Assembly: GCA_004564215.1 (NCBI GenBank)
Contig: CP024846.1
Coordinates: forward strand, 558,001-622,000
Direction: 5' to 3'
DNA: 64,000 nt
From: Beijerinckiaceae bacterium
Lineage (GTDB): Bacteria; Pseudomonadota; Alphaproteobacteria; Rhizobiales; Beijerinckiaceae
Of the stretch, positions 6,814 through 62,664 are shown one piece after another. The translations under genes were made by a program, and so were the position numbers. Under the pieces are notes generated by a model. That model did not search any database, was not told the DNA's origin, and saw only the letters and a list, made by a program, of their open reading frames with translations. How positions within the stretch are numbered: the first letter of the stretch is position 1; the number at the start of each line of letters is the position of its first letter.

Positions 6814-7287
6814 CTAATTGGGGGAAGTTTGTTCAAATTCGTCCGCCCGCAGGCGGCGTGCCATGCCATCCAGCACGGCATTGATCATCCCGGCTTCTTC
6901 AGGGCCAAAAAAGGCGCCGGCAACATCGACATATTCCTTGATCGAAACGCGCGCCGGAATATCCTTTCGTTGCTGCAATTCATAGGCTCCGGCGCGTAAA
7001 ATGGCGCGCATGACCGCGTCGATCCGCGCCAGCGGCCAGCCTGTTGCGAGAGTCGTGTTGACCAGCCTGTCGATCGGACCCTGGCTTGAGATCACGCCCC
7101 TCAGAATATCGCGAAAGAACGCGATTTCCGCCTCCTTATATTGTTCGCCTTCGATTTCATTGCCGATCCAGAAGGATTCGAATTCGGCGCAAGTCTCCTT
7201 CAGGCCCTTTTCGGTGACCTCCATTTGATAAAGAGCCTGGACCGCGGCGAGGCGTGCGGCGGAACGTTGATCGACATTGGCCATCAA
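6814..7287 (-). CDS. nusB: Transcription antitermination factor NusB
   Basis: NusB binds boxA RNA with NusE (S10) and supports antitermination of rRNA transcription. The 157-residue all-helical protein shows RSAARLAAVQALYQMEVT at the N-terminus, then FFRDILRGVISSQGPIDRL, RIDAVMRAILRAGAYEL and VSIKEYVDVAGAFF, which are the conserved family blocks. The C-terminus MINAVLDGMARRLR is also typical. It is followed by thiL 4 bases later. Upstream lies ribH, but a 118-bp palindromic repeat fills most of the 206-base gap, so nusB may have its own promoter or be partly insulated from ribH. Confidence 0.95.
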   Translation of the reverse strand: MMANVDQRSAARLAAVQALYQMEVTEKGLKETCAEFESFWIGNEIEGEQYKEAEIAFFRDILRGVISSQGPIDRLVNTTLATGWPLARIDAVMRAILRAGAYELQQRKDIPARVSIKEYVDVAGAFFGPEEAGMINAVLDGMARRLRADEFEQTSPN

Positions 7288-7380
7288 AGCGCTTTCGGTT
7301 CGAGCGGCGGGAGCGCTCCATTGAGTGTCTTTTTCGCGTTTCTCAGCGCTGCGGGCACAGATCTCGGCAGAAGGATGGTT

Positions 7381-7498
7381 CTAGAGCATGTTCCGAAAAA
7401 GTTGACCGACTTTTTCGATTAGAACATGCTCCAACTCGTTGAACTTGAGCGTTTCCTTTTCGATCAGATGATTCCATCTGATCGGGAAGCGCTCTAGG
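7381..7498. repeat. 118-bp palindromic dispersed repeat, copy 2
   Basis: Second copy of the element at 3286-3403, in the same orientation, with six substitutions by my alignment. It keeps the CTAGAGC/GCTCTAG ends and the inner GAGCATGTTC...GAACATGCTC stem. It occupies the ribH-nusB gap, and its right end supplies the TAG stop of ribH on the minus strand (7494-7496). Confidence 0.9.
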
Positions 7499-7985
7499 CG
7501 CCGCCGATTTCAACCTTAAGCCGATGCAGCGAAAGCGCGGCCCGCGCCGCATCGCCACCTTTGTCACCCTGTTTGGAATCAGCCCGGATCAAAGCCTGCG
7601 CCTCGTTCTCAACCGTCAAGATGCCGTTGCCCAAGGCCAGTTTCCGCGCCATCGCAAGCTCTATAAGGGCGCGCGCGCTCTCACTTGCGACGATTTCGAA
7701 ATGATAGGTCTCGCCCCGGATGACGCACCCAAGGGCGATTGCTCCTTGATAGGCTCGATCCAACGCCTGCGCGCGGTCGAGCGCGATGGCCATGGCTAGG
7801 GGGATTTCGAGCGCGCCAGGGACGCTGATGATGTCAAAATTGGCCCCGGCCGAGGCAAATGCGGCTTTTGCACCTTCGAGCAGGAAAGCCGAAATATCTT
7901 GGTAAAAGCGTGCCTCGACAATCAGGAACCTCGCACCTTTCGCGAACGAGTCGGGAGAGGCCGAAGAACGGCGCGGCAATGCCAT
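7494..7985 (-). CDS. ribH: 6,7-dimethyl-8-ribityllumazine synthase
   Basis: RibH condenses the ribityl-pyrimidinedione with dihydroxybutanone phosphate to the lumazine precursor of riboflavin. The 163-residue protein has RFLIVEARFYQDISAFLLEGA, the substrate-binding VPGALEIPLAMAIAL segment and ALGCVIRGETYHFEIV, where the His acts in catalysis in characterised enzymes; LGNGILTVENEAQAL follows. ATG at 7985 (MALPRRSS) gives the usual family length; the frame continues upstream to 8060 without a reason to start there. The typical partner ribE is not in the window. The stop codon comes from the adjoining repeat, so the C-terminal residue count may be altered relative to relatives. Confidence 0.94.
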   Translation of the reverse strand: MALPRRSSASPDSFAKGARFLIVEARFYQDISAFLLEGAKAAFASAGANFDIISVPGALEIPLAMAIALDRAQALDRAYQGAIALGCVIRGETYHFEIVASESARALIELAMARKLALGNGILTVENEAQALIRADSKQGDKGGDAARAALSLHRLKVEIGGA

Positions 7986-8173
7986 GAAGTGCACTCGAGT
8001 GGGTGATGCGCGGAAGCGTAGCCTTCGAGTAACAACCAAATTCGCTTCCGGCAAGCCCACCTCCGCGGAGGACCAACCACGGCGATCTCAAATTGCGAGC
8101 GGTTTCGCGCGCGGCCCTTGTTTTCGCCTCGGAGCGAGGGTGCGCAAGGCTGCAAGCTCCACATTGCCTGCGC

Positions 8174-8205
8174 ACCAGCCGGGCCGCTCTGCTGGACCGG
8201 CTGGT
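8174..8205. terminator. Perfect 9-bp hairpin between the lipoprotein gene and ribH
   Basis: ACCAGCCGG at 8174-8182 pairs perfectly with CCGGCTGGT at 8197-8205 across a 14-base loop. It lies just past the 3' end of the minus-strand lipoprotein gene. There is no T-run on the minus strand, so its use as an intrinsic terminator is uncertain; it may be a transcript-stabilising stem. Confidence 0.4.
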
Positions 8206-8228
8206 CCTTTCAGCTATACCGGCCCGTG

Positions 8229-58848: not shown

Positions 58849-59535
58849 TCAGGACGAGGTATTTTCAGTATTTATTTTTGGCTCATCGTGCAGAACGACA
58901 TTCAGCAAGGAACTATGAACCTCGATGCCGTCATCGTAGTCAATAAAGCCGAGTTTGCGGAATTTGTTCATAAAAAAGCTTACCCGGGATCGGGTCGTCC
59001 CGATCATATCCGCAAGTGTCTCCTGGCTGATTTTTGTGATCATCGGCTCCGGCTTGCCCTCCTTGCCGAAGTTCGCCAACAGCAGAAGCAGCCGGGCAAG
59101 ACGCTTCTCGCTCGAATTGAAGAGCTGATCGACGAGATCCGCTTCGACCCGGAGGGTGCGACCCACTAGATGGGCGATAAACATTTCGGAGAAAGCCGGT
59201 TCCTGATGGATCGCATGAAGAATCGCCGCTTTTTCCAATCGCATGATGACCGATTCCGTCATCGACGTCACCGTCGAGATGCGCTGCATTTGTCCGGCGA
59301 GGCATCCTTCCCCGAAAAATTCGTGGGTCCCAAGAATGGCCACGACTGCTTCCTTGCCTTGCTCCGAAACAACGGTGACCTTCCCCTTGCCTTTCTGAAT
59401 GTAGAAAACCGCATCCGCCGGCTCGCCCTGAGCGAAGATGACCTGCCCCTTGCCGTACTTGCTGATACTCCGGCCCTCGCCGACTTTGCTGAGAAATGAT
59501 TTAGGATCAAATAGACTTTTCGGTTTAATCGCCAT
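58849..59535 (-). CDS. Crp/Fnr family transcriptional regulator
   Basis: A 228-residue regulator with a cyclic-nucleotide-binding-like sensor domain (SISKYGKGQVIFAQGEPADA, VFYIQKGKGKVTVVSEQGKE, THEFFGEGCLAGQMQR), a dimer helix, and a Crp-type HTH (TKISQETLADMIGTTRSRVS, then FFMNKFRKLGFI). It lacks the N-terminal Cys cluster of true Fnr, so an oxygen iron-sulfur sensor is unlikely. ATG 59535 is chosen because AAGG precedes it by 7 bases; the frame upstream to 59688 lacks support. It is divergent from the RuBisCO-like gene (210-base gap), so it may regulate that gene, but no site was proven. Confidence 0.87.
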   Translation of the reverse strand: MAIKPKSLFDPKSFLSKVGEGRSISKYGKGQVIFAQGEPADAVFYIQKGKGKVTVVSEQGKEAVVAILGTHEFFGEGCLAGQMQRISTVTSMTESVIMRLEKAAILHAIHQEPAFSEMFIAHLVGRTLRVEADLVDQLFNSSEKRLARLLLLLANFGKEGKPEPMITKISQETLADMIGTTRSRVSFFMNKFRKLGFIDYDDGIEVHSSLLNVVLHDEPKINTENTSS

Positions 59536-59745
59536 GACAAGACCTTCTTTACTGCGTCTAGGAACAGCGAGCTGATTCTTTAGCATAGTCGAGTTTCGCT
59601 GATCCACTGTCGTGATCGACACCGAGTCCCTTCGCAGGCTTGGCCGTTCGGCCAACTCCAAAACCAGATGCAATGAAGGTTTCGTCATAGGTTTTCAGGT
59701 GATAGCGTCCGATGCCCTATTCCTCGAACGAGCAAAGGTAAGGCT

Positions 59746-60849
59746 GTGCGCACCCGCCTCCAGGCGTTTTATAAAATCCGCAGCGACGCTGCTTCAATCG
59801 AGGAGCGTGCGCACTCCATTGCGATCGAACAAAGCGTGGAGACACCGCTCGCCGCGATCCGCGATTCCCGCATCTTGTCCGAAATTGTCGGACAGGTGGC
59901 GGCGATCGAGGATGGCGGCGACGGCTGGTTCGACGTGCGCGTTGATCTTGCCGCCGCCACCGTCGGCGAGGATGCCGGCCAGCTTCTCAACATGCTGTTC
60001 GGCAATACTTCCCTTTACGAGGACGTCATTCTCGATGACGTCATCTTGCCAGACGATCTAGCGGCGGCTTTCCGCGGTCCAAACCACGGCATTGAGGGAA
60101 TTTTCGCGCGCGCAAAGGCCAAGCGGCGGGCCCTCACCTGTTCGGCTCTGAAACCCCAAGGCCTCGGCGCAGAAGAATTGGCCGAGCTCGCGTTCAAGCT
60201 GGCGCTCGGCGGGGTCGATTTCATCAAGGACGATCACGGGATAGCCAACCAAGCGTTTAGTCCTTTTGAACCTCGCGTGCGGGCCTGCGCCGCCGCCACG
60301 CGCAAGGCTGCCTCAATCACCGGCCGGCAAACGCACTATGTTCCAAATCTTACCGGTCACTTTGATCAAATCGAACAGCAATTAACCATTGCCCGCTCGG
60401 AGGCACTCGATACGGCGATGATTGCGCCGATGATTGCCGGTGTCTCGAACGTGCAGGCGCTCCGCCAAGCCTATCCGGATTTTGCGTTGATCGCGCATCC
60501 GGCGATGACCGGCGTCAGCCGCATGTCGCCCTATGTTTTCGCCAAGCTGTTTCGCCTGTTTGGCGCCGATGCCTATATCTTTCCAAACCCTGGCGGCCGG
60601 TTCGGTTATACCGTTGCTTGCTGCAAGAAAATTGCGCACGCATTGCGAGCCCCCTGGAATGACTTGCTGCCAAGCCTGCCGGTGCCGGCCGGCGGCATGA
60701 GTCTTCAGCGGGTGCCGGAAGTGCTCGACTTTTACGGCCGCGATGCAATGCTGCTGATCGGCGGTGCCCTTCTATCGGCGCCTCCCGACGAGATCGTTAC
60801 GGAAACCGCCGCTTTTGTGCGCGCGGTCGTTGACCATCATTATGGGTGA
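59746..60849 (+). CDS. RuBisCO-like protein (form IV)
   Basis: A 367-residue RuBisCO-fold protein. It keeps CSALKPQGL (Lys136, equivalent to RuBisCO Lys175), GGVDFIKDDHGIANQAF (Lys161, Asp162, Asp163, and His164 in place of Glu204), IAHPAM (His251) and PVPAGGM in place of the SGG phosphate loop. Loop 6 is changed. Fixation of CO2 is thus not expected. Its partner cupin matches the Rhodospirillum rubrum pair in which an RLP isomerises 5-methylthioribulose-1-phosphate in methylthioadenosine salvage. That assignment is by context and family; a different RLP activity remains possible. GTG at 59746 has AAAGG about eight bases upstream. Its stop overlaps the cupin start. Confidence 0.88.
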   Translation: MRTRLQAFYKIRSDAASIEERAHSIAIEQSVETPLAAIRDSRILSEIVGQVAAIEDGGDGWFDVRVDLAAATVGEDAGQLLNMLFGNTSLYEDVILDDVILPDDLAAAFRGPNHGIEGIFARAKAKRRALTCSALKPQGLGAEELAELAFKLALGGVDFIKDDHGIANQAFSPFEPRVRACAAATRKAASITGRQTHYVPNLTGHFDQIEQQLTIARSEALDTAMIAPMIAGVSNVQALRQAYPDFALIAHPAMTGVSRMSPYVFAKLFRLFGADAYIFPNPGGRFGYTVACCKKIAHALRAPWNDLLPSLPVPAGGMSLQRVPEVLDFYGRDAMLLIGGALLSAPPDEIVTETAAFVRAVVDHHYG

Positions 60850-61318
60850 TCCCATGCCCCATGCGAAAGCCGCTTCAATACCTTTGCGCAAGGCCGGACC
60901 GGATTTCGACTGGGAGGGGATCGAACGCCTCGCCTATAAAGAAGCCGATGCAGCGCCGTTCAAGGCGATCTCCCGACAGACATTGTTTTCAGATCCCCGT
61001 CTTCAAGGCGAATTGCGCTATTTCGAGATCGAGGCCGGCGGGTTTTCAACCCTTGAGCGGCATGATCATATGCACGCGGTCGTCATTCTGCGCGGCAATG
61101 GCCAATGTCTGATCGGCGAGTCCGTCCATCCGCTGAACCCGCACGATCTCGTCACCATCGAGCCATGGACCTGGCATCAATTCCGGGCAGCGAAGACTGA
61201 GCCTTTGGGATTTCTATGCCTCGTCAACAGCGCGCGCGACAAGCCACAATTGCCCAATGCGCGGGAGCTTGCGGAGCTGAAAGCGATCGCCGCGGTCGCC
61301 GCGTTTCTTGAGGGGTAG
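60842..61318 (+). CDS. Cupin domain protein paired with the RuBisCO-like protein
   Basis: A 158-residue cupin. The metal-binding motif is ERHDHMHAVVILRGNG (His74, His76, and His78 with Glu72), and the second cupin motif PWTWHQFRAA includes His112. The N-terminal helical region and RQTLFSDPRL segment are outside the barrel. In Rhodospirillum rubrum a cupin is the methylthioxylulose-5-phosphate methylsulfurylase, releasing methanethiol and giving DXP; this is the natural candidate role here. ATG at 60842 overlaps the end of the RLP gene by 8 bases (ATGGGTGA), implying translational coupling; an internal ATG at 60854 is possible. Confidence 0.82.
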   Translation: MGDPMPHAKAASIPLRKAGPDFDWEGIERLAYKEADAAPFKAISRQTLFSDPRLQGELRYFEIEAGGFSTLERHDHMHAVVILRGNGQCLIGESVHPLNPHDLVTIEPWTWHQFRAAKTEPLGFLCLVNSARDKPQLPNARELAELKAIAAVAAFLEG

Positions 61319-61368: not shown

Positions 61369-62664
61369 TCATGTCCGGTCGGACAGGCGTTCGATCACCG
61401 CACCGCAGGCGCCGAGCTTTTTTTCGATATGTTCGAAACCGCGGTCGAGATGATAGACACGATTGACCATGGTCTCGCCCTCAGCCGCAAGCGCCGCGAT
61501 CACCAGCGACATCGAGGCGCGAAGATCGGTCGCCATCACCGGCGCGCCTTGCAAATCCTCGACGCCCTCGACCACCGCGACATCGCCATCGAGCTTGATA
61601 TGGGCGCCGAGCCGGGCCAATTCCTGAACATGCATGAAACGATTTTCGAAGATCGTTTCGGTAATCCGCGAGGAACCCTTCGCCTTGGTCATCAAGGCCA
61701 TGAACTGGGCCTGCAAATCCGTCGGAAAGCCGGGAAACGGCGCGGTTGTGATATCGACGGGCGACAGGCCCGCGCCATTGCGCTGAACCCGCAAACCTTC
61801 GTTGGTCGCGGATATTTGGGCGCCGCTCCGCTCGATCGCTTCAATCGCGCTTTCCAGCAGGTTTTGGGTCGCGCCCTCCAGCATGACATCGCCGCCGGCC
61901 ATCGCAACGGCCATTGCATAGGTGCCGGCTTCGATACGGTCGGGCAGGACCGTGTGGCGGGCGCCGGATAGACTGCAGACACCCTCGATCTCAATGCGGG
62001 ATTGCCCCGCCCCTTTGATCCTCGCGCCCATCTTGATGAGGCAATCGGCGAGATCGACGATCTCCGGTTCGCGCGCGGCATTGACAAGGAGCGTATGGCC
62101 CTTGGCCAGCGAAGCGGCCATGAGCGCGGTATGCGTGCCGCCGACCGTCACCTTGGGGAAATGGATCTCGGCGCCGGACAGGCCCTTGGGCGCCTTGGCA
62201 TGAACATAACCGGCCTCGATCTCGACGCTGGCGCCGAGCTTTTCGAGGACCATGATCAAAAGATCGACCGGCCGCGTGCCGATCGCGCAGCCGCCCGGCA
62301 AGGAAACCTTGGCCTCCCCCATCCGTGCGAGCAACGGGGCGATGACCCAAAAACTCGCCCGCATCCGGGAGACAAGCTCATAAGGGGCCAGAATATCGAC
62401 GATCTGGCGGGCGCTGAGGTGGATGGCCCGGCTCGCATGGGCGGGCGCGCCCGGACGGCGGCCATCGACCGAATGATCGACGCCATGATGGCCGAGGATG
62501 CGCAACAGCATCGCCACATCCGCGAGATTGGGGATGTTTTCAAGCGTCAGAGTCTCGGTGGTCAGAAGCGAGGCGATCATCAGCGGCAGCGCCGCGTTTT
62601 TGGCGCCGGATATTCTGATGACGCCATTCAGTTTCTGACCGCCGACGATACGAATTCGATCCAA
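61369..62664 (-). CDS. murA: UDP-N-acetylglucosamine 1-carboxyvinyltransferase
   Basis: MurA transfers enolpyruvate from PEP to UDP-GlcNAc, committing it to peptidoglycan. The 431-residue two-domain protein has [20 protein letters not shown] (with the Lys of the KN motif), [20 protein letters not shown], the catalytic Cys in [36 protein letters not shown], and [20 protein letters not shown], plus [19 protein letters not shown] at the end. The Cys means fosfomycin could alkylate it. It lies on the minus strand with a small protein gene upstream (62699-62917), and convergent with the cupin gene. Confidence 0.96.

Follow-up and report, generated by a model that had tools for sequence, protein, structure and literature searches.

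Two adjacent genes, encoding a RubisCO-like protein (RLP) and a cupin, lie on the forward strand of the window, the 64,000-nucleotide stretch of Beijerinckiaceae bacterium DNA that was analysed and that forms part of a single 3,326,434-base contig. The pair is best read as a 5′-methylthioadenosine (MTA)–isoprenoid shunt, to which we assign a probability of about 0.88. This shunt had been proposed in a preliminary description of the DNA, and it is supported by the clade of the RLP, by the likeness of the cupin to Rru_A2000 and by the presence of mtnA and mtnP. We infer the chemistry of every step, and what becomes of the methanethiol, from characterised relatives. MtnP would convert MTA to adenine and methylthioribose-1-phosphate, MtnA would turn the latter into 5-methylthioribulose-1-phosphate, and the RLP would convert this to 1-methylthioxylulose-5-phosphate, from which the cupin would remove methanethiol to leave 1-deoxyxylulose-5-phosphate (DXP). 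DXP would then enter the MEP pathway, adenine would pass to Apt, and methanethiol would either be returned to methionine via O-acetylhomoserine sulfhydrylase or be oxidised by MtoX.

The genes, families, clade, conserved residues and co-occurrence described here are direct observations of the analysis. In the window, the pair and its immediate surroundings comprise the following features.

58849–59688, minus strand: Crp/Fnr-family regulator (Pfam cNMP_binding and HTH_Crp_2), divergent from the RLP gene; a shorter start at 59535 is possible.
59746–60849, plus strand: RLP gene, an open reading frame with a GTG start and 367 amino acids; Pfam RuBisCO_large; predicted 5-methylthioribulose-1-phosphate 1,3-isomerase, DeepYkr-type.
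60226–60237, plus strand: K161-D162-D163-H164 of the RLP, from column counts over 87 relatives.
60842–60849, plus strand: RLP/cupin overlap ATGGGTGA, 8 bases, if ATG 60842 is the cupin start.
60842 (or 60854) to 61318, plus strand: cupin gene, from either ATG to the stop; Cupin_2; predicted 1-methylthioxylulose-5-phosphate methylsulfurylase.
61369–62664, minus strand: murA, downstream of the cupin gene on the opposite strand.

Both open reading frames are as originally claimed, and their overlap depends on the choice of cupin start: were translation to begin at the alternative in-frame ATG, 60854, the genes would not overlap, and the sequence favours neither ATG. Provided that the first is used, the overlap suggests translational coupling. 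Among the best 80 of 548 relatives, 78 loci bear a cupin, and 13 of these likewise offer an ATG at −7. Just 5′ of the RLP GTG lies a possible ribosome site, AAGGTAAGG, recognised by eye.

The RLP scores 88.5 bits with RuBisCO_large and the cupin 41.9 bits with Cupin_2, both over the Pfam cut-offs; neither protein matches an NCBIfam model over that model's own cut-off. A search of the PDB with the RLP gave 3qfw as the top match at 349.7 bits, the second reaching 124.7 bits. Over its aligned stretch, 3qfw shows 100% identity with a protein that bears the name Rhodopseudomonas palustris; this species and the query are in the same bacterial class but in different families. The two RLPs share 178 of 361 aligned residues (49.3%) and agree at 29 of 31 inspected positions, the exceptions being 282 and 318.

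A tree of 104 rows was built from the query, 80 loci of named genomes, 4 PDB chains and, from the family genomes, 10 RLPs and 9 further members of the superfamily. One side, 92 rows set off by a branch with SH-aLRT 100, holds the query and 3qfw together with 87 close relatives and 3 more divergent ones; the search was quick, with a midpoint root, no bootstrap and long-branch warnings, one divergent row being among those concerned. The opposite side holds MtnW (2oek), 4nas, four OiaX-like proteins, one unassigned RLP and RuBisCOs of forms I, II and III; family members were classed by the best NCBIfam model on the matched stretch, and the four OiaX-like proteins fall short of the cut-off of their model. 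The query thus groups with the R. palustris protein and apart from clades with other known activities, and so passes the refuting check that had been proposed for the phylogeny. The clade is anchored on 3qfw because the R. rubrum RLP sequence is absent from the tree. Neither Rru_A1998 nor RPA2169 is in it under those names, and 3qfw is treated as an R. palustris RLP, not equated with RPA2169.

The active-site columns agree with this placement. The query and 3qfw carry every one of the clade residues K136, K161, D163, H164, H251, R285 and G339-G340, as do 87 of 87 close relatives. K161-D162-D163-H164 is the stretch equivalent to RuBisCO K201-x-D203-E204. This KDDH motif occurs in all 87 close relatives and in 3qfw, with His at position 164 where RuBisCO and MtnW have Glu; the inspected MtnW and RuBisCO rows read KDDE or KNDE. 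Elsewhere in the alignment the query has A220, departing from the Gly of all 87 relatives, and F120, where 81 of the 87 have Arg. By clade and conserved residues, the RLP is predicted to be an isomerase of the DeepYkr type.

Two other identities for the RLP were rejected. As a RuBisCO carboxylase it scores 140.5 bits with the type III model (cut-off 497.45) and 127.8 bits with the large-subunit model (cut-off 438), and the tree and the His at 164, in place of the metal-binding Glu of the KxDE motif, also speak against it. It is barely credible that the RLP is instead an MtnW-type enolase acting in the universal methionine salvage pathway. Weak matches to the MtnW models do exist (151.1 bits against a cut-off of 409, and 107.4 against 513.6), but both scores fall far under their cut-offs, the SH-aLRT 100 branch parts the RLP from 2oek, position 164 is His and not Glu, and mtnD, which serves a later step of that pathway, was not found in the genome.

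The partner protein points to the same chemistry. In a PDB search the top match of the cupin was 3jzv, labelled Rru_A2000, with 81 of 145 residues identical (55.9%). His 74, 76, 78 and 112 (numbered from ATG 60842), which would bind the metal as in other cupins, do not vary among the 86 rows that have a letter at these columns, in an alignment of 88 relatives, and their equivalents are carried by 3jzv and 3kgz; the retention of these residues, claimed at the outset, is borne out. According to PMC4958253, Rru_A2000 is the MTXu-5P sulfurylase of R. rubrum and Rru_A1998 its RLP.

It is very unlikely that the pair acts on a related phosphosugar, for example 5-deoxyribulose-1-phosphate from 5′-deoxyadenosine, with the cupin catalysing another elimination. 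Related salvage enzymes take both by-products, of the MTA type and of the 5′-deoxyadenosine type, which counts in favour of such a substrate; however, a methylsulfurylase requires a substrate with a methylthio group, the cupin shows 56% identity with the enzyme that carries out this removal, and the active-site columns of the RLP match those of the R. palustris RLP.

The association of the two genes extends well beyond this genome. In a neighbourhood sample of 80 loci from named genomes, taken as the best 80 of 548 RLP relatives, a cupin gene lies downstream of the RLP gene on the same strand in 78 loci, and within 0.4 kb in 77, so that adjacency of RLP and cupin is more than chance. One of the two remaining loci (L085) belongs to a contig that stops 287 bases past the RLP gene. 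The other (L082) carries an RLP of the same clade at 7200–8219 and no cupin despite 6 kb of room; the next gene there, on the other strand, is for cysteine synthase A (544.6 bits against a cut-off of 387). In Methylocapsa aurea (L022) the RLP–cupin gap is about 1.4 kb and the pair is split by an opposite-strand frame of 323 amino acids at 7116–8087. Neither mtnA nor mtnP was seen in the flanks of the related RLPs at any of these 80 loci (best 80 of 548).

A third conserved operon gene was sought among the same 80 loci together with the window. Loose clustering of the 3712 frames of these 81 loci gave groups present in up to 81 loci, but mixed true genes with antisense and out-of-frame readings, and not all groups could be assigned. 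Under strict clustering of the 2398 frames that do not overlap the RLP or cupin genes, no group occurred in more than 12 of the 81 loci, and the ten largest groups contained no member from the window; the candidate third gene was rejected.

Within the family the two genes also travel together. The sample consisted of 99 genomes, 96 of which reach a completeness of 90% or more and a contamination of 5% or less. An RLP match at E ≤ 1e-10 occurs in 34 of the 99, and an RLP of the query's kind (36–100% identity, E ≤ 1.1e-57) in 11, this cut having been placed post hoc at a gap, with the next genome at 2.6e-23. A cupin match (E ≤ 1e-10) was found in exactly the same 11 of 99 genomes, which supports a shared function. 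Cupin and RLP share contig and strand in 10 of the 11, lying within 0.13 kb of each other in nine and about 1.2 kb apart in G038. In the remaining genome (G091; L118, L119) the RLP is divergent, at 36% identity, with mtnA about 7 kb off and the cupin on a different contig. One RLP match (G017:C3:85751-86794, L115) contains a single in-frame TGA, either a decaying gene or a sequencing error, and the cupin is kept. All 11 pair-bearing genomes have mtnA, against 50 of the 88 others (Fisher p 0.003, kinship ignored); because the genomes that carry the pair are related to one another, these counts cannot be treated as independent. ARD matches were absent from all 11 pair-bearing genomes and present in 11 other genomes of the family, over the cut-off in two.

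The remaining steps of the proposed route are encoded at other places of the genome. These features, on the same contig, are as follows.

1328490–1329206: mtnP, 504.9 bits against a cut-off of 437.
2802220–2803212: mtnA, 417.9 bits against a cut-off of 279.
G000:C1:2065781-2066950 (L129): methanethiol oxidase MtoX, 701.6 bits against a curated cut-off of 650.
L011:7287-12075 (G000:C1, about 669.3–674.1 kb): class II aldolase/eda/edd/zwf cluster; the aldolase gene overlaps eda by 4 bases.

Placement of mtnP and mtnA outside the window had been noted from the start; both are present elsewhere in the genome, over curated cut-offs, so that the shunt also passes the refuting check proposed for mtnA. 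The genes mtnA and mtnP and the RLP–cupin pair occupy three separate places. The apt gene adjoins mtnP with a 4-base overlap. A single O-acetylhomoserine sulfhydrylase is over its cut-off (601.3 against 495.1 bits), with weaker relatives under it, and together with MtoX it provides two predicted exits for methanethiol. On the isoprenoid side, dxs (809.4 bits, cut-off 465.95) and ispH (473.6 bits, cut-off 420) are present, and HpnG, squalene-hopene cyclase and ispH all fall within 5 kb, marking a hopanoid cluster. The proposal that MTA is routed to isoprenoids should not be taken to mean that Dxs is replaced: with dxs present, the shunt would be a salvage side-route that supplements DXP, and not the sole source of isoprenoids. 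The pair probably serves to detoxify MTA and to salvage sulfur, DXP being a by-product.

An expected absence of mtnB to mtnD was borne out in part. A model search of the genome did not find mtnD (ARD family), the same model giving matches in 5 of 14 control genomes and scores over the cut-off in two of them. For mtnB, the one class II aldolase found in the genome scores 69.4 bits with the MtnB model, against a cut-off of 137.05. This aldolase is FucA-like (263.3 bits with PRK08087, cut-off 264; 234.2 bits with PDB 1fua) and bears on another account, in which MTA is salvaged mainly by an Ald2-type DHAP shunt of MtnP, MtnA and a class II aldolase, with the RLP–cupin pair minor or parallel. We regard this as somewhat unlikely. 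The single aldolase is close to L-fuculose-phosphate aldolase, and PMC5893883 describes R. palustris as running both routes aerobically; but the gene overlaps eda and lies beside edd and zwf, which suggests a role in sugar metabolism. A FucA-like aldolase is, in our judgement, an odd partner for an Entner–Doudoroff cluster. An Ald2-type route, even if true, would leave the function of the RLP–cupin pair unchanged.

A regulatory role had been suggested for the Crp/Fnr gene, which does diverge from the pair as described and is followed, on the upstream side of the pair, by a MerR-family gene. The analysis found no support for control of the pair by this regulator. No Crp/Fnr homologue (E ≤ 1e-5) was detected near the related RLPs at any of the 80 loci (best 80 of 548), 68 of which have at least 2 kb upstream of the RLP. 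The DNA upstream of the RLP gene showed no clear conservation with L020, L021 and L023, and the best CRP or FNR box there has 3 mismatches of 10. A promoter scan gave one promoter-like site (0.7 expected), on the other strand, and a terminator scan five terminator-like sites (2.7 expected); neither yielded anything useful for the RLP–cupin pair.

The closest comparison among related genomes is with seven Beijerinckiaceae loci, L020–L026 (four Methylocapsa records, Methylocella tundrae and two Beijerinckiaceae MAGs), whose RLPs are 61–75% identical to that of the query. The cupin is downstream in all seven, as in the query; unlike the query, none has a Crp/Fnr neighbour in the flanks examined.

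The best-characterised counterpart is in R. palustris, where RLP1 and the cupin run the shunt, on the evidence of deletion strains and labelled metabolites given in PMC5893883, which also reports a kcat of 1.3 per second for RLP1 and at least 25 species holding the shunt gene set. In that account RLP1 and the cupin (RPA2169–RPA2170) are neighbours by locus number, as are the two genes here, and mtnP and mtnA lie away from them in both organisms; mtnP and mtnA adjoin in R. palustris (RPA4821–RPA4820), whereas here they are apart, and the Ald2 route is demonstrated there, whereas here it is a possibility. At the protein level, the query RLP is 49% identical to the R. palustris RLP 3qfw and falls in the same clade. 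Relative to the R. rubrum pair Rru_A1998/Rru_A2000 (PMC4958253), the cupin is 56% identical to Rru_A2000 and the chemistry would be the same; by locus number one gene may separate RLP and cupin in R. rubrum, whereas the two genes here touch or overlap.

The MTA–isoprenoid route is described in a review (PMC6302742), and RLP and cupin have already been used as searchable orthologues (PMC10663253). The shunt has been published and shown in two purple bacteria, and the pair adds a further example to this known pathway without defining another. Consumption of methanethiol by a methanotroph is likewise known (PMC9003020). Searches of the open-access literature found no account of a RubisCO-like protein in Methylocella silvestris, nothing on methylthioadenosine in Beijerinckiaceae, nothing related on methionine salvage in Methylocapsa and nothing related on 3QFW; methylthioadenosine, methanotroph and methanethiol together returned only archaeal methylthiotransferases.

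The genome probably belongs to the Methylocella genus group, protein names pointing to Methylocella and Methylocapsa. The shunt may also feed C1 metabolism, in what is probably a methane or methanol user, through oxidation of methanethiol by MtoX, an extension that we consider unlikely. The products of MtoX are formaldehyde, sulfide and peroxide. If this extension is true, the cell would recover the methyl group of S-adenosylmethionine through its own methylotrophic pathways, and the ribose carbons would pass to DXP and hopanoids. More generally, a shunt proven in two purple non-sulfur bacteria would now extend, as judged by sequence, to a single-contig genome of the Methylocella group, in which its distinguishing genes and upstream steps are present. 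With MtoX encoded in addition to the sulfhydrylase, the fate of methanethiol becomes a clear question for experiment in a group with methane oxidisers among its members.
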